Below are positions 15,782-47,406 of a DNA stretch of 64,000 bases, in pieces. The stretch is from Actinomycetota bacterium (lineage in GTDB: Bacteria > Actinomycetota > Thermoleophilia > Miltoncostaeales > Miltoncostaeaceae): NCBI GenBank assembly GCA_016870155.1, contig VGCE01000001.1, forward strand, positions 1 through 64,000, written 5' to 3'. Numbering within the stretch: the first letter of the stretch is position 1; every line of letters starts with the position of its first letter. Made by a program: the position numbers and the translations under genes. The notes under the pieces are model-generated. The model did not search any database, was not told the DNA's origin, and saw only the letters and a list, made by a program, of their open reading frames with translations.

Positions 15782-15793
15782 GCCGCTAGCGGC
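15782..15793. repeat. 12-bp perfect palindrome between dprA and pafBC
   Basis: GCCGCTAGCGGC spans the 7-bp gap between the convergent dprA and pafBC and includes the pafBC stop codon. It may form a small shared terminator stem. Confidence 0.3.
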
Positions 15794-17867
15794 GCGCGGG
15801 CGCGGCGGCGTGGTGCTCGATGATGCGCTCTGCGTTGCTCGCCACGACGACGCGGAGTTCCTCGGGGGTGTGCAGCACGGCCTCGCCGCCGTGCTTGGTG
15901 ATCTCCTTCACCAGCCACTCGTCGCTGGCGTAGGGGATCTCCGCGATGATCGAGCCGTCCGAGAACCGCTCCGCGGACGGATGCTCCTCGGCCAGCCAGC
16001 GCGCGATGGCCGGGCTGCACCACACGCGCGCGATCTGGGCGTGCTGCTCGGCCTGCGCCGAGGTTCCCCAGGGCTGATAGGGCACGGCCTCCACCTCCAC
16101 CCTGCGGTCGAAGTGCTCATCGAGCGGCGTGGCGGCGCGGATGCGGTCCAGGCGGAAGGTGCGCTGCTCGCCGGCCCTGCGGCAGAACGACACCAGGTAC
16201 CAGGCGTCGCGGGAGTTCATGAGCATATGCGGCTCGATCACCCGCTTGGTCACCTCGCCGCGCGACTCGGTCCAGTAGTCGATCTCGATCACGCGGTCCT
16301 CGCGCACGGCGCGGGCGAGCAGCGCCCCCACCGGCTCGCTGGCGGTCTGCACCGCGCCGAGCTCCACGCCGGTGGTGGACGCCTCGCCCACGGCATCCTC
16401 GATCTTGCGGCGGGCGGACGCCAGCGACTCCTCGCCCACGAGGGGCAGACGCCCGCCCACGAAGTCGAGGGCCCACAGCAGCGCCTTGGCCTCGAGCGGC
16501 GAGAGGCGCGCGGGGCGCGAGAACTGATCGCCGTACACCTCCTTCTGCACCACCACCTCATCGCCCTCCACCAGGGCGAACAGCGCGTAGCAACCGCCGC
16601 CGAAGTTGATGAGGTTGAGCAGGGTGAGGTCCTCCTCGAGGGCCTCCTGGGTGAGGTTGAGCTCCGATCGCAGGGCCGCGCACGGCACCTCGGCCTCGTA
16701 CGAGCGGCCGCATGCGGCGAGCAGTCGCGTCATCAGCGCGAGCAGGCGCGAGATGCGCTCCACGGGCACCACGCGCTCCGCCGGATCATCGGCGTCGGCC
16801 GCCGGGGCGGGCTCGGCCGAGCGCGGCAGCGGCTTGGCGCGGCGGCGCGGCATGGCGGAGTGGCGGGTGCGCAGCAGTGCGAGCGCGGCAACGGCGGCGT
16901 CGCGCAATGCCGGGGGCTCGAGCACCTGCGCCTCGGCTCCCAGTCCCAGCACCCACGACACGATCTCGCGCTCGCCACCGTAGTCGGTGCGGAACACCGC
17001 CGACCCGTCGGCGCGCTCCTCGTACTCGCCCTGGCCGCCGAACATCTGGTCGACCCACCAGGCGATGGTGGGGGAGAGCTCGATCACCGCCGTGCCCACG
17101 GGGTCGGCCAGCTGCCAGGGGGCGCGGTCGCGGTAGCGCGAGAGGTCCACCTCGCTTGGGGGCGGGAAGTCGTGCTCGGCCCGGGTCTTGAAGGTGATGC
17201 GGCCCTGGATGCGCGAGAGGCGGAAGCACCGGAGGTCCTCCCGGTCATGCGCGTAGCCCACGAGGTACCAGTTGCCCGCCATGTAGAGCAGGCTGTAGGG
17301 GTCCACCTCGCGGTCGCCCAGGTCGTCGCGGCCGATCGAGTAGTACCGGAAGCGGATCGTCTTGCGGCGGCTTATGGCCGACTCGATCTTGATGAGGTGG
17401 CTCGCCACCTCGGACGTGTGGCGGCTGCCCAGCAGGTTCACCGCCACCGTGCGCGCAGCGTGGTCGTCGAGGGGGCTCGGCCGGCCCAGGGTGAGGTGCT
17501 GCAGCGCCAGGCGCAGCGGCTCGGCGTAGGCGAACTGGCCTTCGAGCAGGTAGAGGCTGGTGTGCAGCGCGCTGAGCTCGGCCTCGTCGAACTCGATGGG
17601 TGGCAGGTAGTAGTTCTCGGGCGGCATCGCGTAGAGGTCGCCCTGGAAGGGATCATCGCTCGGGCGCTCCACTGCCAGCTTCAGGCCCACGCCCTCCAGC
17701 TCGGACCGGTCGGAGTAGAAGCGGCGCAGGAATGCCTGCTCGCTCATGCCGCCGTAGCCCTCCACCGCCTCGTGTATCTCCTCGGCGGTCACGGGACGCT
17801 GCTGCGCCATCAGGAATGCGACGAGCGAGAGCTGCCGCACCAGCTTGTCGTCATCCCTCTGGCCCAC
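15786..17867 (-). CDS. pafBC: Fused PafB-PafC WYL-domain transcriptional activator
   Basis: 693 residues in two similar halves. Each has a winged-helix N-terminus (DDKLVRQLSLVAFLM; PVERISRLLALMTRLL) followed by a WYL domain (RFRYYSIGRDDLGDREVDPYS..WYLVGYAH; IDYWTESRGEVTKRVIEP..WYLVSFCR) and a WCX-type C-terminal extension. PafBC controls the RecA/LexA-independent DNA-damage response in mycobacteria, and WYL domains can bind single-stranded DNA. In mycobacteria pafB and pafC are separate genes; here they are one. GTG 17867 has AAGGAGAGG just upstream. Confidence 0.9.
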   Translation of the reverse strand: MGQRDDDKLVRQLSLVAFLMAQQRPVTAEEIHEAVEGYGGMSEQAFLRRFYSDRSELEGVGLKLAVERPSDDPFQGDLYAMPPENYYLPPIEFDEAELSALHTSLYLLEGQFAYAEPLRLALQHLTLGRPSPLDDHAARTVAVNLLGSRHTSEVASHLIKIESAISRRKTIRFRYYSIGRDDLGDREVDPYSLLYMAGNWYLVGYAHDREDLRCFRLSRIQGRITFKTRAEHDFPPPSEVDLSRYRDRAPWQLADPVGTAVIELSPTIAWWVDQMFGGQGEYEERADGSAVFRTDYGGEREIVSWVLGLGAEAQVLEPPALRDAAVAALALLRTRHSAMPRRRAKPLPRSAEPAPAADADDPAERVVPVERISRLLALMTRLLAACGRSYEAEVPCAALRSELNLTQEALEEDLTLLNLINFGGGCYALFALVEGDEVVVQKEVYGDQFSRPARLSPLEAKALLWALDFVGGRLPLVGEESLASARRKIEDAVGEASTTGVELGAVQTASEPVGALLARAVREDRVIEIDYWTESRGEVTKRVIEPHMLMNSRDAWYLVSFCRRAGEQRTFRLDRIRAATPLDEHFDRRVEVEAVPYQPWGTSAQAEQHAQIARVWCSPAIARWLAEEHPSAERFSDGSIIAEIPYASDEWLVKEITKHGGEAVLHTPEELRVVVASNAERIIEHHAAAPARR

Positions 17868-17899
17868 CCGGCCTCTCCTTCGACTGCGGCGCGCTTGGC

Positions 17900-17905
17900 A
17901 TGCTA
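17900..17905 (-). promoter_or_regulatory. Candidate -10 element for pafBC
   Basis: TAGCAT on the minus strand, 32 nt before the pafBC start, with a leader containing AAGGAGAGG. It lies in the 71-bp divergent gap to the nuclease gene. Confidence 0.35.
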
Positions 17906-17938
17906 GCCGAGAGAGGGGCCTCTTCGCGCGGTCCCGGG

Positions 17939-18442
17939 GTGCGGATTGTCGCATGTGGAGCCATGATCGCCACACTTTTCACCGCTGGGTGCGGGTCGTC
18001 CGGGATGCCCGCAGCCGGCTCCGGGCGCGTAGCGCGAGTGCTCGACGGCGACACCATCGTGGTGCAGGGCGTGGGCACGGTGCGCTATATCGGCATCGAC
18101 ACGCCCGAGTTGCACCACCCGCGCAAGCCCGTGGAGAGGTTCGCGGCACGTGCCGCGCAGATGAACCGGCGCATGGTGGAGGGGCGCGTGGTGCGGCTGG
18201 TCACCGACGTGGAGGAGCGCGACATGCATGGTCGCCTGCTCGCCTATGTGTACGTCGGTACCGTGATGGTGAATGCCCGGCTCGTGGCGCTGGGGGCCGC
18301 CAAGCAGTTTCCGTTTCCGCCGAACACGCTGCACAGGGCGCAGTTCGCGCGACTCGAACGCCAAGCCATGCGTGCGCGTCGCGGGCAGTGGGGCCCGGCG
18401 GAGGGCGGCCCGCCGTGGGGTGCGGTCAGTCGGTCGGGTTGA
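17939..18442 (+). CDS. Secreted lipoprotein nuclease, thermonuclease (SNase) family
   Basis: 167 residues. The N-terminus has an Arg, a hydrophobic run and a lipobox-like TAGC near residue 18, so it is probably a membrane-anchored lipoprotein. The SNase core is intact: VLDGDTIVVQGVGTVRYIGIDTPE contains the Asp, Arg and Glu corresponding to catalytic residues, and DMHGRLLAYV supplies the second Arg. GTG 17939 fits the signal peptide; ATG 17900 in the same frame is the alternative. It would degrade extracellular nucleic acids. Its end overlaps the convergent gene at 18426 by 17 bp. Confidence 0.88.
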   Translation: MRIVACGAMIATLFTAGCGSSGMPAAGSGRVARVLDGDTIVVQGVGTVRYIGIDTPELHHPRKPVERFAARAAQMNRRMVEGRVVRLVTDVEERDMHGRLLAYVYVGTVMVNARLVALGAAKQFPFPPNTLHRAQFARLERQAMRARRGQWGPAEGGPPWGAVSRSG

Positions 18443-21554: not shown

Positions 21555-21989
21555 TCAGTCCTCGGCGTCCTCGTCCTCCATGAGGAACTCGATGAGGTCC
21601 TCCACCGTGAAGCGGCCGGCCTGCATCGACGCCATGAGTCCATACACCGTGGCTGAGTGCGGGCGCTCCAGCACGTACTCGCGAATCGCCTCGTTGCCCG
21701 TGGCATCGATCTCCTCCACGGCCTTGCGCCCCACGGCGGTGGCCACCACGCCGGTGCCCTCCACGTCCACCAGGCCGGCCACCGACAGCGACTTGGCCGC
21801 CGCGGCGATCTCGTCGGGCTCGGCCCCGAACTCCGCGGCAAGCCCGGTCATGGGCCGCCCGTCGGGCTCGCGGGCCAGAGAGCGAAGCAGCAGGTATGAG
21901 CCCGAGGACAGCCCGGCGTCCATCACGACCTGGTCGAGCACGCCCGCCACCTCGGCGAGCAGCTGCAGGTCGTCCTCGTCGCGATACAT
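21555..21989 (-). CDS. Putative MarR-like winged-helix protein
   Basis: 144 residues. Residues ~20-90 read like a winged helix: SYLLLRSLAREPDGRPMTGLAAEFG, a recognition-helix-like DEIAAAAKSLSVAGLV, then a wing. The C-terminus is acidic (FLMEDEDAED). This is a fold guess, not a family match. It starts 2 nt after the stop of the gene at 21992, so the two are coupled. Confidence 0.65.
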   Translation of the reverse strand: MYRDEDDLQLLAEVAGVLDQVVMDAGLSSGSYLLLRSLAREPDGRPMTGLAAEFGAEPDEIAAAAKSLSVAGLVDVEGTGVVATAVGRKAVEEIDATGNEAIREYVLERPHSATVYGLMASMQAGRFTVEDLIEFLMEDEDAED

Positions 21990-21991
21990 GG

Positions 21992-22318
21992 CTAGGGGCC
22001 GTACCGGTGGGCGGGGGCAGGGCGCAGCGAGTCGTATGCCGCACCCATCCAGATTCGGCCGGTCACGCCGCGCTCGTCGAGGGTGCGCAGGGCCGATCGC
22101 ACCACGCCCGCCCGCGCGCCTCGCCCGTGGGTGTTGGCCACGGTGATGGCGAAATCGTGGTCGGCATCCTCGCGGACCGGACGGCCGTTGGCGCGGGCCA
22201 GGGCAACGCGGGCATCGGTGAGGCGCAGCGGGTCCTCCACGGTGAGGTGGCACTCGAGCGAGGTCCAGTCGGGGGCGAGCTCGGCGAGCACGGCGTCGAA
22301 GTCGTCGGCGTAGGGCAC
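21992..22318 (-). CDS. Hypothetical protein
   Basis: 108 residues from GTG 22318, supported by a TAGCCT 6 nt upstream. The start YADDFDAVLAELAPDWTSLECHL and the later FAITVANTHGRG show alternating strands; no family recognised. It lies between a DUF1802 gene and the MarR-like gene on one strand. Confidence 0.65.
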   Translation of the reverse strand: MPYADDFDAVLAELAPDWTSLECHLTVEDPLRLTDARVALARANGRPVREDADHDFAITVANTHGRGARAGVVRSALRTLDERGVTGRIWMGAAYDSLRPAPAHRYGP

Positions 22319-22324
22319 GCGATC

Positions 22325-22330
22325 AGGCTA
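22325..22330 (-). promoter_or_regulatory. Internal -10 element before the gene at 22318
   Basis: TAGCCT on the minus strand ends 6 nt before GTG 22318 and overlaps the stop codon of the upstream DUF1802 gene, giving the downstream genes their own possible start of transcription. Confidence 0.45.
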
Positions 22331-22918
22331 GCCCAGCGCCGCGGCGCCGTGAGGCGACTCCGGACCCGCCGCGGCAAGGACGGCGGACACCGTGGCGCGC
22401 ACCTCGGCGAAGCGGGCGTCGTCTAGCACCGGGTTGGCCGCGGGCATCTCCAGCGGCACCTCCACCCAGCTGCGGCAGCCGCGCATATGGGGCGACACGT
22501 CGAGGGCCAGCGCGGGGCTCACCCGGTGCACGCGGGGCACGATCACCATGAGCGGGTGAGTCGGGCGCCAGCGCAGGCGCGCCTCGGCGTAGTGGGGCCC
22601 CAGCACGTGGAATGGCGCGAGGGCGTCGAGCTCGGCCTGCTCGCTCACCTCGTGGACGTCCGCCACCTCGCACCAGGCGGCCAACTGCACCCGCGGGGGC
22701 TCCTCGGTGACGGCCAGCAGCTCGGGCCAGCGCCCGGCCACCTCGGGCGTCAGCAGCCCGGGCCGCTGGTGCACGTGGGTAGGCAGCAGCAGGAAGCTCC
22801 GGTGGGGCACGTCGAAGCGCTTCTCGCCGATGCCGCCCTTGCGGAGCATCACCACCTGGTCGCCCGCCAGCATGGCGGCGATGACGGTTGCCCATTCCTT
22901 CAGCGCGAACGGCTGCAC
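22328..22918 (-). CDS. DUF1802 family protein
   Basis: 196 residues. The N-terminus ALKEWATVIAAMLAGDQVVMLRKGGI and the later FLLLPTHVHQ match the DUF1802 pattern, a family of unknown function known mainly from cyanobacteria and some actinobacteria. The C-terminal half has VPLEMPAANPVLDD. GTG 22918 is supported by TACCTT 6 nt upstream. It is divergent from mqnE across only 39 bp. Confidence 0.8.
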   Translation of the reverse strand: MQPFALKEWATVIAAMLAGDQVVMLRKGGIGEKRFDVPHRSFLLLPTHVHQRPGLLTPEVAGRWPELLAVTEEPPRVQLAAWCEVADVHEVSEQAELDALAPFHVLGPHYAEARLRWRPTHPLMVIVPRVHRVSPALALDVSPHMRGCRSWVEVPLEMPAANPVLDDARFAEVRATVSAVLAAAGPESPHGAAALG

Positions 22919-22924
22919 TCGGCA

Positions 22925-22950
22925 AAGGTAGCGTGAACCGGCGCTACCAT
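22925..22950. promoter_or_regulatory. Compact divergent promoter of the DUF1802 gene and mqnE
   Basis: Minus-strand TACCTT (22925-22930) ends 6 nt before GTG 22918, and plus-strand TACCAT (22945-22950) ends 7 nt before ATG 22958. Both fall on the 7-bp inverted repeat GGTAGCG (22927-22933) / CGCTACC (22942-22948). Confidence 0.6.
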
Positions 22951-22957
22951 CGCCCCC

Positions 22958-24064
22958 ATGATCGACGCCATCCTCTCCCGGGCCGCGGAGGGCGAGCGCA
23001 TCAGCGCCGACGAGGCCCTGGCCCTATACGAGCAGGCCCCGCTCGACGACCTGGGGGCCGCTGCCGAGGCCGTTGCGCGCCGCATGCACGGCGACGAGGT
23101 CACCTACAACGTCAACGGCTACCTCAACCCCACCAACATCTGCGTGGTGGGGTGCGGGTTCTGCGCGTTCGCGGTGTGGACCGACCACGACCCGCGCGCC
23201 TACGCCTACTCGGTGGACCAGCTGGTGGACCGCGCGCAGCAGATCTCCGACACGGGCATCACCGAGCTGCACATCGTCGGGGGGATGACCAAGGAGTACA
23301 CCCTCGAGTACTACGAGGACCTCTTCCGCGAGCTCAAGGCGGCCCTGCCGCACGTGTCGCTCACGGCGCTCACCGCGGTGGAGGTGGAGTTCGTGGCGCG
23401 CATGGCGCGCGTCAGTCCGCGCAAGGCGCTCGAGCGCCTCATCGCCGCGGGCCACGACAGCATGCCGGGTGGCGGTGCCGAGGTGTTCAGCCCCCGCGTG
23501 CGCAAGATCATCGCCGACCGCAAGCTGCCGGCCGAGCAGTGGCTCGAGGTGCACCGGGACGCCCACGCCCTGGGACTTCCCACCAACGCCACCATGCTGT
23601 TCGGGCACTTCGAGACGCCCGCCGAGAAGGTGGACCACATGATCCAGCTGCGCGGCCTGCAGGACGAGGGCATCGCCGCGGGCAGCTCCGCGCGGTTCCA
23701 GGCCTTTATCCCGCTGCCGTTCCTGCCCGGCAACACCGACTTCTCGTACCTGCCCGGCCCGTCGCGCGACGAGAAGCTGCGCACCATCGCCCTCTCGCGC
23801 CTCGTGCTCGACAACATCCCGCACATCAAGGGCCACTGGGTGATGCTCGAGGAGGACGTCACGCAGGAGGGCCTCAGGTTCGGCCTGGACGACCTTTCGG
23901 GAACGCTGGTGGAAGAGCGCGTGGCGCACGCCACCACGGTGCAGACGCCGCTGGGCCTCACGCGGGATCGCATCAGCGACCTCATCCGGGGCGGCGGTCG
24001 CACGCCTGTGGAGCGCAACACCACCTACGGCCGCGTGGGGCGCGAGGCTGTCGCAGCGTCCTAG
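22958..24064 (+). CDS. mqnE: Aminofutalosine synthase MqnE (radical SAM)
   Basis: 368 residues. The radical-SAM cluster is CVVGCGFCAF near residue 60. The region GGGAEVFSPRVRKIIADRK, LEVHRDAHALGLPTNATMLFGHFET and FQAFIPLPFLPGNT fits MqnE rather than the related MqnC, which has a different pattern after GGGAEI. MqnE makes aminodeoxyfutalosine, the first steps of the futalosine route to menaquinone. No other mqn gene is in the window. Confidence 0.85.
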   Translation: MIDAILSRAAEGERISADEALALYEQAPLDDLGAAAEAVARRMHGDEVTYNVNGYLNPTNICVVGCGFCAFAVWTDHDPRAYAYSVDQLVDRAQQISDTGITELHIVGGMTKEYTLEYYEDLFRELKAALPHVSLTALTAVEVEFVARMARVSPRKALERLIAAGHDSMPGGGAEVFSPRVRKIIADRKLPAEQWLEVHRDAHALGLPTNATMLFGHFETPAEKVDHMIQLRGLQDEGIAAGSSARFQAFIPLPFLPGNTDFSYLPGPSRDEKLRTIALSRLVLDNIPHIKGHWVMLEEDVTQEGLRFGLDDLSGTLVEERVAHATTVQTPLGLTRDRISDLIRGGGRTPVERNTTYGRVGREAVAAS

Positions 24065-24125
24065 CCAGCAGCGGTCTGGCTGCTACCAAACGCCTACGTC
24101 CGTGCCCCCAACCGCAGGAGCCGCA

Positions 24126-25082
24126 GTGACCTTGCGCATCGCCGCCCCCCTTGCATTCCTCGCGATGGCAGCCATCGCCACCCCGGCGCTCGCGGCGCCC
24201 GGGGCGTGGGGCCACGGCCTGGAGATCGTGCCGCTCGTGCCCGCGTCGCCCCCGCCCGGGGCCGACGACCTGGAGACTGCCCCGCTGGTGCCGCCGAAGC
24301 CCGCCGCGCCACCGGTGGACGACCTGGAGATTGCCCCGCTCATCCCGAAGAAGCCGCCGCCGGCCATCGAGATCATCCGCTGGAAGAAGAAGAAGGTGAC
24401 CCGTCCGCGGTACCCGGACTACAGCGCCCGGCAGCAGACCTTCAATGCGTATCTCGCCGGGTCGCAGAGCGCGATCCTCCGATGGGCCATCGACGTCGAC
24501 GCCGAGCCCGGGCGCTGCAATCGCGCGGGCAACGCAACCGTCGTGTACTTCGCCAGCAGGCGGCCGATCCTGGTGTCGGCCGCCAACCGATCAATCTCGA
24601 TCGGGAGCATCCCCGTCACCATCAACTTCGCGTCGTCAGTGTCGTACAACCCGGACAAGGACAGCTGCTTCGCCCTGCGTCCGTCGTCCGCATGCCGCCT
24701 CGACGCGCAGGAGCTTCCCGGCACGGCCACCCTGTCCACCCGCGGGAATGGCACGTCGACGCGCGCGGTGTACCTGTCGAGCCTTTCGATCGATGAGGCA
24801 CGGGCGGGTTCCACGTGCGTCAGCGGGATCTTCGGGTTTCCGGAGATCCTCGGCGTCGACAGCGGTGTGGAGGACGCCCCCATTCCCTGGCGTGCCGTGA
24901 ACAGCCGGTCGCAGCAGAACGTGGCCCTCGGGCGCAGCTACGGCACAGCCGGCAACCAGTCGACGCCCGGCACCACGTGCACCCAAGTGTCAACCGGGTA
25001 CGCGTGCTCCTTCTCGTCCACCACGAAGTGGAACCTGCGCCTCGTGCGCGCCACCCAGCGGCGGGTGCCCGGGCAGCGCTAG
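24126..25082 (+). CDS. Secreted protein with proline-rich tandem repeats
   Basis: 318 residues from GTG 24126, with CAGGAG six bases upstream. A signal peptide (LRIAAPLAFLAMAAIATPALA) is followed by three imperfect repeats of DLEIAPLIPKKPPP type (residues ~38-82), a basic segment WKKKKVTRPR, and a ~200-residue beta-rich domain with six Cys, probably three disulfides. No known family recognised. Likely exported, with the proline-rich part as a spacer or wall-crossing segment. Confidence 0.75.
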   Translation: MTLRIAAPLAFLAMAAIATPALAAPGAWGHGLEIVPLVPASPPPGADDLETAPLVPPKPAAPPVDDLEIAPLIPKKPPPAIEIIRWKKKKVTRPRYPDYSARQQTFNAYLAGSQSAILRWAIDVDAEPGRCNRAGNATVVYFASRRPILVSAANRSISIGSIPVTINFASSVSYNPDKDSCFALRPSSACRLDAQELPGTATLSTRGNGTSTRAVYLSSLSIDEARAGSTCVSGIFGFPEILGVDSGVEDAPIPWRAVNSRSQQNVALGRSYGTAGNQSTPGTTCTQVSTGYACSFSSTTKWNLRLVRATQRRVPGQR

Positions 25083-25107: not shown

Positions 25108-25926
25108 CTACGAGATCGCGCGGCGGCGGAACGACAGCCCGGCCGAGAGCGCGATGACCGCGCACCAGAGCAGCGTCCACAGCACCGTGAGCCACGAGGC
25201 CGCGGGCACGATGACGATGTTCTGGTTGATCTCCAGCTGGGCGCCGGCCACGCCGGCCACCCCGCGGCCCTGCATGTCGCTGAGCATCGGCGAGGTGATC
25301 GCGCGGGGGAACAGCAGGTAGAGGCCCTTGATCAGTCCGCTCCACGCCGTGCCGATGACGCCGTCGTTGGCGGCGGACATGAGGTTGACCAGCGACAGGC
25401 ACGAGACGTAGAAAAAGATGGCCACGATCGCCGAGGCCACAGGGCCGAGCGCCACGCTGCACAGCGCGGCGGTCACCAGCACCAGGATCATGTTCTCGAA
25501 CATGGCCAGCCCGTGCACGAATAGCGGCCAGTCGCCCCCCTGGCCGATGGCCGCGGAACAGATGGCGGCGACGATCATCCAGATCGCGAACACCGCCGCA
25601 AGCGCCACGAGGCGCCCGGCAATACGGGCGAGCACGACCGTGGCGCGCGGTGTGCCGGTGGCCACCTGCATGCCCACCCAGCCGCCGTCGGCGTCGCGGT
25701 TCACCGTGCTGGCGCCGAGCGAGCCGGCCACCAGCAGGCCGCCCACCAGGTACACCCCGGCGGTCCACGACCGCATGGTGTCGGTGGCCGCGAGCCCATT
25801 GCGGGTGGCCCCCAGCACGGCTCCGGCCACGATGAGCGCGGCCCCGAGCACGAGCAGTCCCCGGAACCACCTGCGGCGCCCGATGCCACGGGCCTCCAGG
25901 CGGGCGATGATCACCGTGGGGTTCAC
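25108..25926 (-). CDS. ABC-type membrane permease subunit
   Basis: 272 residues with about six hydrophobic segments (LLVLGAALIVAGAVLGA, VYLVGGLLVAGSLG, LAAVFAIWMIVAAICSAA, ILVLVTAALCSVALG, IVAIFFYVSCLSL, LTVLWTLLWCAVIALSAG). It overlaps the ATPase gene upstream by 4 nt, so it is taken as its membrane partner. GTG 25926 with GGGGAG upstream. Substrate and direction are unknown; ABC-2-type exporters have this layout. Confidence 0.75.
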   Translation of the reverse strand: MNPTVIIARLEARGIGRRRWFRGLLVLGAALIVAGAVLGATRNGLAATDTMRSWTAGVYLVGGLLVAGSLGASTVNRDADGGWVGMQVATGTPRATVVLARIAGRLVALAAVFAIWMIVAAICSAAIGQGGDWPLFVHGLAMFENMILVLVTAALCSVALGPVASAIVAIFFYVSCLSLVNLMSAANDGVIGTAWSGLIKGLYLLFPRAITSPMLSDMQGRGVAGVAGAQLEINQNIVIVPAASWLTVLWTLLWCAVIALSAGLSFRRRAIS

Positions 25927-26522
25927 CCGGGGCTCCCCTCGACCAGGTGGATGCTCGCCCCGAGCAGGCCCGGCAGCCCACCGGGGTCGGACGATGCCGC
26001 CAACACCGACGCCCCGCGCGCCATCGCGCGGCGGATGGCATCGGTGGTCTCGGGGAACTCCCACGGGTCATCAAGCACCAGCAGGTCGGGCTCGCCCATG
26101 ATCGCGCAGGCCATGCAGATGCGGCGCACGTCCTCCATCTCGAGCGACTCCACGCGGGCGTCGGGGGCTGTCACGGCCATCTCGTCGATCGCCCGCTCGG
26201 CCTCGGTCGGCCCGTGGCCGCCGAGTTCGGCGACCATGCGCACCACCTCGCGGCCCTTCAGGCCGAAGGTGAGGGGCCATGCCTGCGGCGCCCAGCCGAT
26301 GCGGCGCAGGGTGGCGGGGTCACCCGCCGGGCCGCCCAGCACCGTGATGTTGCCGCCGGGGCCCGCAAGCCCCAGCACCGCGCGAAGCACGCTCGACTTG
26401 CCCGATCCGCGGTCGCCGGTGACGAGCAGGCCGGCGCCGGGGCGAAGGTCGATGTTCACGCCGCTCACCGCGAGGGCGCCGCCGCGCTGGTAGCGCACCT
26501 CGATGGCCCGGGCGCGGATCAC
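25923..26522 (-). CDS. ABC transporter ATPase with degenerate catalytic motifs
   Basis: About 199 residues from GTG 26522 (an ATG at 26591 in frame would overlap the ferredoxin gene by 40 nt). Walker A GDRGSGKSS is intact. The signature is VESLEMEDVRR instead of LSGGQ, Walker B ends LVLDDP with Asp in place of the catalytic Glu, and the switch region is LAASSDPGG with no His. It may bind but poorly hydrolyse ATP. Start codon overlaps are GTGA with the permease. Confidence 0.75.
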   Translation of the reverse strand: MIRARAIEVRYQRGGALAVSGVNIDLRPGAGLLVTGDRGSGKSSVLRAVLGLAGPGGNITVLGGPAGDPATLRRIGWAPQAWPLTFGLKGREVVRMVAELGGHGPTEAERAIDEMAVTAPDARVESLEMEDVRRICMACAIMGEPDLLVLDDPWEFPETTDAIRRAMARGASVLAASSDPGGLPGLLGASIHLVEGSPG

Positions 26523-44240: not shown

Positions 44241-45428
44241 CTAGTGGCCGGGCAGCGGGATCTCGGCCAGGTAGGGAGGGCCGGGAAGCGGCGCGAGGCC
44301 CAGGCGGCCCGCCGCGAGGTCGATGAGGGCGTCGCCGGCCACCTCACGCCGCCAGCCGCGCCCCAGGGGGAGTTCCTCGACGGCACCCTGCATGAGCACA
44401 CCTGCGAGGAAGGCGTCGACGTCGTCGCGCGTGGCCACGAGGGTGGGCGCCAGGTCGACGTCCGCTGATCGCGCCGTGAGCAGGATCTGCGCCAGCGGCG
44501 TCAGCGTGTCGAGCCGCGCCTGCACCTTCGCGGGCAGGGGCGGGCCCAGCGCGATGGGCGGGTCGCCCGCGGCCTCGTCCATGGCGGCGATGAGCGACTC
44601 GGCCTCGCGCTCGCGCATGGCCGATGGCACGCCGCGCTCGTCCAGCAGCACCCCGGGGCCCTTGGGCCGGCGGCGGGCGATCTCGATCAGCGTGCGGTCG
44701 GGCAGCAGCCAGCCCACGGGGCGGTCGCGGCGCCGGGCCTCCATCTCGCGCCACGCCGCGGCCCGGCGCAGCACGGCGCGCTCGGCCGGCTGCAGGCGGC
44801 CCTGGCCCTTCACCCTGCGCCATGCCTCGTAGGGGTCGGGAGCCACCCGGGCCGTGGGGCCGTAGCGGCGCTCGTGCTCCTCGAGGACCCACTCGGTGCG
44901 GCCCAGGACAGCGGCCCGACGCATGAGCGTATCGACCATCGCGAACAGGTGCGCCACGTCGGTGGCCGCATATTCGAGTTGGGCCGTGCTGAGGGGGCGG
45001 CGCGACCAGTCGGAGTACCCCTCGGTCTTGGGCACGCGGATGTCCAGCACCCGCTGCAGGAGGGCCCCCAGGCTCTGGCCGGCGCCGAGCCCCACGAAAC
45101 CCCCGATCAGCTGCGAGTCGAGCAGGTTGGTGGGACGCACGTCGAACCCCAGCGCGAACAGCGTGAGGTCGGCGCTCGGCGCGTGCATCACCACCTCCAC
45201 CGCTGGATCGGCCAGCAGCGCCGCGATGTCGTCGAGCGCGCCGCCCTCGACGGGGTCGATGAGGGCGATCTCGTCGGGGGTGGCCACCTGTGCGAGGCAG
45301 GGGATGGGCGCGTACGTGCGCTCCCACAGGAACTCCACGTCGAGGGCCATGCGCCCGTGGGTCCTCACGCGTCCGGCGAGGTCGGCGACCTCCTCGGGCG
45401 TGACGATGATGCTCGTCCGCTCGCTCAC
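44241..45428 (-). CDS. rnd: Ribonuclease D-like 3'-5' exonuclease with HRDC domain
   Basis: 395 residues. DEDD exonuclease motifs: MALDVEFLWERTY (ExoI Asp and Glu), VMHAPSADL (ExoII Asp), LEYAATDVAHL (ExoIII Tyr and Asp). A HRDC-type helical region follows (QPAERAVLRRAAAWREMEARRRDRP). It trims tRNA or other structured RNA. GTG 45428 with TAATCT 8 nt upstream. Confidence 0.92.
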   Translation of the reverse strand: MSERTSIIVTPEEVADLAGRVRTHGRMALDVEFLWERTYAPIPCLAQVATPDEIALIDPVEGGALDDIAALLADPAVEVVMHAPSADLTLFALGFDVRPTNLLDSQLIGGFVGLGAGQSLGALLQRVLDIRVPKTEGYSDWSRRPLSTAQLEYAATDVAHLFAMVDTLMRRAAVLGRTEWVLEEHERRYGPTARVAPDPYEAWRRVKGQGRLQPAERAVLRRAAAWREMEARRRDRPVGWLLPDRTLIEIARRRPKGPGVLLDERGVPSAMREREAESLIAAMDEAAGDPPIALGPPLPAKVQARLDTLTPLAQILLTARSADVDLAPTLVATRDDVDAFLAGVLMQGAVEELPLGRGWRREVAGDALIDLAAGRLGLAPLPGPPYLAEIPLPGH

Positions 45429-45429
45429 G

Positions 45430-45447
45430 ACGCCTAAGATTAGGCGT
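45430..45447. promoter_or_regulatory. Palindromic divergent promoter of rnd and the ABC-F gene
   Basis: The 20-bp gap is filled by ACGCCTAA-GA-TTAGGCGT, 8-bp arms around 2 nt. Plus TAAGAT (45435-45440) ends 8 nt before GTG 45449; minus TAATCT (45442-45437) ends 8 nt before GTG 45428. The hexamers overlap by four base pairs. Confidence 0.65.
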
Positions 45448-45448
45448 A

Positions 45449-47406
<1,958 letters not shown>

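Follow-up and report, generated by a model that had tools for sequence, protein, structure and literature searches.

Two leaderless promoters placed back to back as the probable source of a palindrome between the DUF1802 and mqnE genes

The divergently transcribed DUF1802 and mqnE genes of a Miltoncostaeaceae genome (phylum Actinomycetota) are separated by only 39 bp in the window, i.e., the whole stretch of 64,000 nucleotides that was analysed, and the center of this gap is occupied by a perfect inverted repeat (Table 1). The mirror symmetry is very probably explained by two separate leaderless promoters of the housekeeping type that lie back to back, and a dedicated regulator is unnecessary to account for it. 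Each promoter would consist of an extended -10 element (G-N-TANNNT) with its start site expected at the first base of the start codon, and each extended -10 would be read by the housekeeping polymerase, an assignment of sigma factor that we infer. The two boxes appear as mirror images because both fit one consensus (CGCTACC-W-T in the clade with 39-bp gaps) and face away from each other.

Table 1. Features of the DUF1802-mqnE region, in positions of the window.
Feature	Positions	Strand	Remarks
144-aa ORF	21555..21989	-	AAA_assoc_C 26.4 of 27.6 bits, just below cut-off; syntenic across family
108-aa ORF downstream of DUF1802	21992..22318	-	no family match; syntenic across family
DUF1802 protein, 196 aa, predicted ASCH/PUA-like fold	22328..22918	-	GTG start; PF08819; pLDDT 88.9; 5gus_A Z 9.7
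Divergent intergenic region, both putative core promoters inside	22919..22957	.	39 bp
-10 box TACCTT, putative DUF1802 promoter	22925..22930	-	first T at -12 from GTG; extended -10 G 2 bases upstream
Inverted repeat GGTAGCG-N8-CGCTACC	22927..22948	.	
-10 box TACCAT, putative mqnE promoter	22945..22950	+	first T at -13 from ATG; extended -10 G 2 bases upstream
mqnE, probable aminofutalosine synthase, radical SAM, 368 aa	22958..24064	+	

The sequence, coordinates, repeat arms, hexamers and spacers of 6 and 7 nt given for this site in the initial annotation were borne out by re-inspection of the window. The minus-strand TACCTT (read 22930-22925) ends 6 nt ahead of the GTG at 22918, the plus-strand TACCAT ends 7 nt ahead of the ATG at 22958, and the repeat overlaps both hexamers. 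By eye, a good -35 is absent in either direction, and a scan with the sigma-70 consensus found no promoter, as expected for high-G+C boxes that lack a good -35; a terminator scan returned nothing.

A TANNNT motif about 12 bp before the start codon has been described as a mark of leaderless genes, which make up ~20% of Actinobacteria genes, and the three middle positions of the motif carry little information in high-G+C genomes (PMC3160421). Genes were called in the window together with 200 kb of adjoining contig (264 kb in total, 71.8% G+C, 276 genes), with gene starts taken from a home-made codon model. In this sample, 42 of the 276 genes have a TANNNT whose first T falls at -12 to -15 (15 genes at -12, 13 at -13, 10 at -14, and 4 at -15), against a background, taken between -45 and -18, of 23 matches in 28 positions, or ~3.3 expected per four positions. 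The boxes of DUF1802 and mqnE, with offsets of 12 and 13, both fall on this peak, and judging from their position the two transcripts presumably begin at the first base of the start codon. The clearest upstream preference among the 42 promoters is a G two bases ahead of TA (69%). Agreement over at least 7 contiguous bases around TA is found in 37 of 780 pairs (4.7%) of other leaderless promoters in this genome, and the symmetric pair is therefore mildly lucky rather than remarkable. A scan of the whole genome (1,811,387 bases on 16 contigs) for GCTACCNT followed by 6-7 nt and RTG gave 18 matches versus 16 in the reversed control; GCTACC alone thus shows no enrichment ahead of starts.

The comparison was then extended to the family, where DUF1802 is present in 39 of 42 genomes. 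Thirty of these 39 were fetched as loci in a first survey, with mqnE divergent at 39-172 bp in 28 of them and at 826 bp in L030, the remaining locus (L018) ending at a contig edge. Addition of named loci gave 37 distinct pairs, of which 34 have gaps of 39-172 bp and three (L030, L044, and L052; 826-1296 bp) were kept apart; L061 is a named copy of L030. Dropped from the set L001-L069 were sequence duplicates and, for want of the two genes together, L018, L037, L045, L050, L058, and L064-L068. Regardless of gap length, a TANNNT at -12 to -15 precedes mqnE in all 34 close pairs and DUF1802 in 33 of them, L010 being the sole close pair without a DUF1802 box. Both boxes are also retained in all three long-gap pairs (with the mqnE start of L061 taken at its ATG), and two genomes that gave no DUF1802 match (G005 and G006; loci L050 and L045) still have the mqnE box, at -12 and -13. 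With gap lengths ranging from 39 to 172 bp and a box still at each start, the position of the boxes goes with that of the start codons. The hexamers of a pair are 14 nt apart in eight loci (the seven with a 39-bp gap and L009, whose gap is 40 bp) and 23-146 nt apart in the other 25 that have both boxes. The G of the extended -10 is found in 33 of 33 mqnE promoters and 29 of 33 DUF1802 promoters. The reading of the gap as a pair of divergent promoters whose -10 boxes lie 6-7 nt from the starts is thus backed by family-wide boxes at both starts, and the conservation of the DUF1802-mqnE pairing, which the initial annotation had proposed to check, holds across the family.

The exact repeat with its 8-base spacer is found only in L001-L007, all with a gap of 39 bp, which form one clade (support 100/99) in a 28-row tree of DUF1802. 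The initial annotation had named a lack of conservation of the gene pair and repeat in close relatives as its refutation; this did not occur, and both are kept in six further genomes of this clade. The arms are perfect and invariant in all seven genomes, with arms of 8 bp and a spacer of N6 in the six others, from which the window differs by one base.

Several other observations were made on these loci. A C six bases before TANNNT is present in 32 of 33 mqnE promoters versus 10 of 33 DUF1802 promoters. By eye, a unit similar to the DUF1802 start and -10 region is repeated in tandem within the 172-bp gap of L024. The DUF1802-mqnE locus is also carried by public MAGs whose records bear the titles Acidobacteria or Bifidobacterium breve (L033, L035, L040, and L060), and these are probably mislabelled.

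The initial annotation had taken the repeat as a single regulator-binding site, i.e., an operator at which a dimeric regulator would bind the palindrome and control DUF1802 and mqnE jointly, a possibility that now appears quite unlikely. While the perfect, invariant arms of the 39-bp clade and a gene for a WYL/PafC-type regulator ~5 kb away are in keeping with an operator, the same invariance over seven related genomes is also expected for two -10 boxes, and no regulator match was present among the seven nearest proteins scanned, three of which lack any family match. Neither of the properties expected of an operator was observed, namely a half-site spacing that is fixed in relatives and arms that change together: the half-sites move with the start codons, so that their spacing varies between loci, and the arms show no covariation. 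Arm statistics were computed for 33 loci (L010 left out), with arms of at least 7 in 12 loci and of 6 or fewer in 21, 13 of which share TA alone. For the subset of 13 loci with CGCTA common to both sides, mean arm agreement is 7.92 within a locus versus 7.99 between loci. Across all 33 loci, arms of at least 7 are commoner within loci (12/33) than between them (224/1056, 21%), an excess that probably follows relatedness rather than coupling because the means are equal among the 13 CGCTA loci; some selection on symmetry is possible. The other menaquinone loci examined (the two PF02621 genes, MqnC, and a C7 homologue, each with ~1.5 kb of flanking sequence on either side) contain no GCTACCNT and no paired repeat, and the single copies of GCGCTAC found there (in L133 and L135) do not serve as the -10 of any gene examined; no TANNNT was found at -11 to -16 before the listed PF02621 gene starts. 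With spacing unfixed and arms uncoupled, the repeat is therefore read as two copies of one extended -10 consensus and not as a fixed operator. The regulator gene itself (15786-17975) is an ORF of 729 aa; WYL and WCX stretches occur twice each in its product, together with a PafC helix-turn-helix, the composition of a fused pair of WYL-type regulators.

It is very improbable that the repeat is a chance product of G+C-rich DNA with no promoter role. Arms of at least 7 bp do arise in 2.9% of shuffled 39-mers (5.3% when both -10 boxes and the extended G are held fixed), and such repeats are frequent in the divergent gaps of this genome, being present at any spacing in 12 of the 27 gaps of 1-299 bp in the 264-kb sample. 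The window has a single exact copy of the 22-base pattern and, when up to three mismatches are allowed, 8 matches versus 6.2 expected. By itself the repeat is mildly unusual, and its meaning comes from its coincidence with the -10 boxes. What speaks against chance is that these boxes occupy the leaderless position established in the sampled part of the genome and are kept on both sides across the family.

A strict bidirectional promoter, in which one shared symmetric -10 is used both ways, is hardly credible here, for although the site is symmetric, short and divergent and bidirectional promoters have been described as present in all prokaryotes (PMC12825309), it has two separate -10 hexamers 14 nt apart and its presumptive starts are 40 nt apart, not near the 18, 10 or 23 bp that usually separate the starts of the bidirectional class with its one shared -10 (PMC12825309), so that on presumptive starts the site falls outside that class. 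A different palindrome in the window is a better candidate for a true bidirectional promoter with a shared -10 than the DUF1802-mqnE site. This near-perfect palindrome (CACGACGCCTAAGATTAGGCGTAGTG, 45426-45451) has as its ends the GTG starts of two divergent genes, one RNase D-like (minus strand, PF01612) and one ABC-F-like (plus strand, PF00005 and PF12848); 21 nt separate the two starts, and the -10 boxes (TAAGAT/TAATCT) overlap. The palindrome is present within three mismatches in 3 of 42 family genomes, its own genome counted.

Two leaderless promoters packed into 39 bp may also influence one another. At a spacing of 17 nt, the -35 regions would lie at 22922-22927 (plus strand) and 22953-22948 (minus strand), where each covers or abuts the -10 box of the opposite promoter, and polymerases in the 39-bp clade should therefore exclude each other. 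In five bidirectional promoters of E. coli, competition was reported only when one direction was substantially activated (PMC12825309).

The plus-strand gene is most likely MqnE. Its product scores 399.3 bits against TIGR03700, the best of 13 NCBIfam models but below the cut-off of 434.55, so MqnE is the likeliest name and not a formal membership. The only solved structure matched by the product is aminodeoxyfutalosine synthase (6xi9/6xig, 3.3e-80), and the gene that does pass the MqnC cut-off is a different one, adjacent to a PF02621 gene on contig C5. An element upstream of mqnE, GGATGACCCT, is found in 8 of the 34 loci (L011-L017 and L019), all with the genus-type gaps of 75 or 96 bp; L014 and L015 have one mismatch, and the other six match exactly. 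The position of the element is constant with respect to mqnE (-45 to -35) but not with respect to DUF1802 (-32 to -41 or -52 to -61), and it may be a regulator site for mqnE. The element is missing from the loci with 39-41 bp gaps, where the best match has 4-5 mismatches. Within the genus, GGATGACCCTNNGG has 20 matches in 13 of 20 genomes, compared with 7 in the reversed control. Six of the 20 are in the DUF1802-mqnE gap, and since the other 14 are by eye mostly coding, no regulon is claimed. That the gap of the 39-bp clade is short enough to have made its promoters mutually exclusive, with activator control of mqnE replaced by polymerase competition with the gene for an ASCH-fold (RNA-type) protein, would be a further reading, though an unlikely one.

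The initial annotation had further taken the layout to tie DUF1802 to the first radical-SAM step of menaquinone synthesis. Within the family, the conserved DUF1802-mqnE order belongs to a larger conserved block, which also includes the 108-aa and 144-aa ORFs downstream of DUF1802 and, beyond mqnE, a 318-aa ORF (25108-26064; permease-like by eye, with no family match). The 108-aa ORF has a leaderless-type -10 of its own (TAGCCT, first T at -12). Each of the two small ORFs is present in 31 of 39 named mqnE loci, against 30 for DUF1802 and 30 for the 318-aa ORF. The eight loci missing the 108-aa and 144-aa ORFs are at contig ends (L037, L055, L058, and L067) or distant (L064-L066 and L068); DUF1802 is missing from three of the contig-cut loci, the four distant loci, and L045 and L050, and the 318-aa ORF is also missing from L045 and L054, with no contig end nearby. 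As the neighbours are equally conserved, DUF1802 is no more attached to mqnE than they are. In a sample of the class, DUF1802 is present in 63 of 149 genomes, 32 of them outside the family; the genome of Synechococcus elongatus, included as a control, also gave a match. Of these 32 genomes, two (G053 and G145) have a strong mqnE-like match (E < 1e-70) on a contig other than that of DUF1802; the match is weaker in 29 (4e-48 to 3e-60) and absent in one. mqnE was beside DUF1802 in none of 27 loci outside the family, with ~1.5 kb examined on each side. Together with the two DUF1802-free genomes that keep the mqnE box, these data do not support a promoter-level tie of DUF1802 to menaquinone synthesis. 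Immediately 3' of mqnE, a 326-aa ORF with no family match (24102-25082) is matched only by L047 among the 39 named loci and therefore looks like a recent gain.

The DUF1802 protein itself matches PF08819 over 172 of 174 positions (E 6.6e-46; 156.8 bits, above the gathering cut-off of 25), an accession found in no paper of the open-access literature, where the name DUF1802 occurs in one. A profile search against solved structures gave nothing credible (best E 0.33). A structure model built from 22 family sequences has a mean pLDDT of 88.9, and a Foldseek search with this model gave ten matches with E up to 0.001, all of them ASCH proteins, the best being a Zymomonas ASCH protein (E 9.7e-5, TMq 0.45). 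Superposition on 5gus_A gave a Z of 9.7 (rmsd 3.1, 124 aligned residues), where unrelated models typically reach 7-8. On the strength of this model, DUF1802 is predicted to have an ASCH/PUA-like fold. The ASCH motif, given as GxKxxxxR (PMC5615036), is not reproduced: in a register set by eye, DUF1802 reads G19-x-Q21-x4-R26, and across the 22 sequences the G and R are invariant, the Q is nearly invariant, and K is absent at the motif position. Unlike E. coli YqfB, which needs Lys21 and Thr24 (PMC6972931), DUF1802 is without a Lys/Thr counterpart at that spacing, again in a register set by eye. An RNA-related role for DUF1802, suggested by the predicted fold, is a lead and not a result, and the ASCH-like fold provides a fold-based lead for this family.

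The sequence feature is real and its explanation in all likelihood ordinary, the palindrome being made by the shared consensus of two leaderless promoters. Palindromes in compact, leaderless, high-G+C genomes may thus be two facing copies of a -10 rather than operators, and caution is warranted in their interpretation. The movement of half-sites with start codons and the covariation of arms between genomes discriminate an operator from paired -10 copies. Family-wide divergent leaderless promoters with gaps from 39 bp up also provide a natural series for polymerase interference.

Amongst known systems, the bidirectional promoters described by Warman, Grainger and colleagues (PMC12825309) resemble the DUF1802-mqnE site in that a short symmetric stretch of DNA serves two divergent genes and competing polymerase binding is expected, but those promoters share one -10, while the -10 boxes here are separate and the presumptive starts lie well apart. 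The leaderless promoters of Actinobacteria (PMC3160421) likewise have a TANNNT whose first T lies ~12 nt before the start codon; at the DUF1802-mqnE site, by contrast, a back-to-back pair occupies just 39 bp and happens to have the same extended bases.
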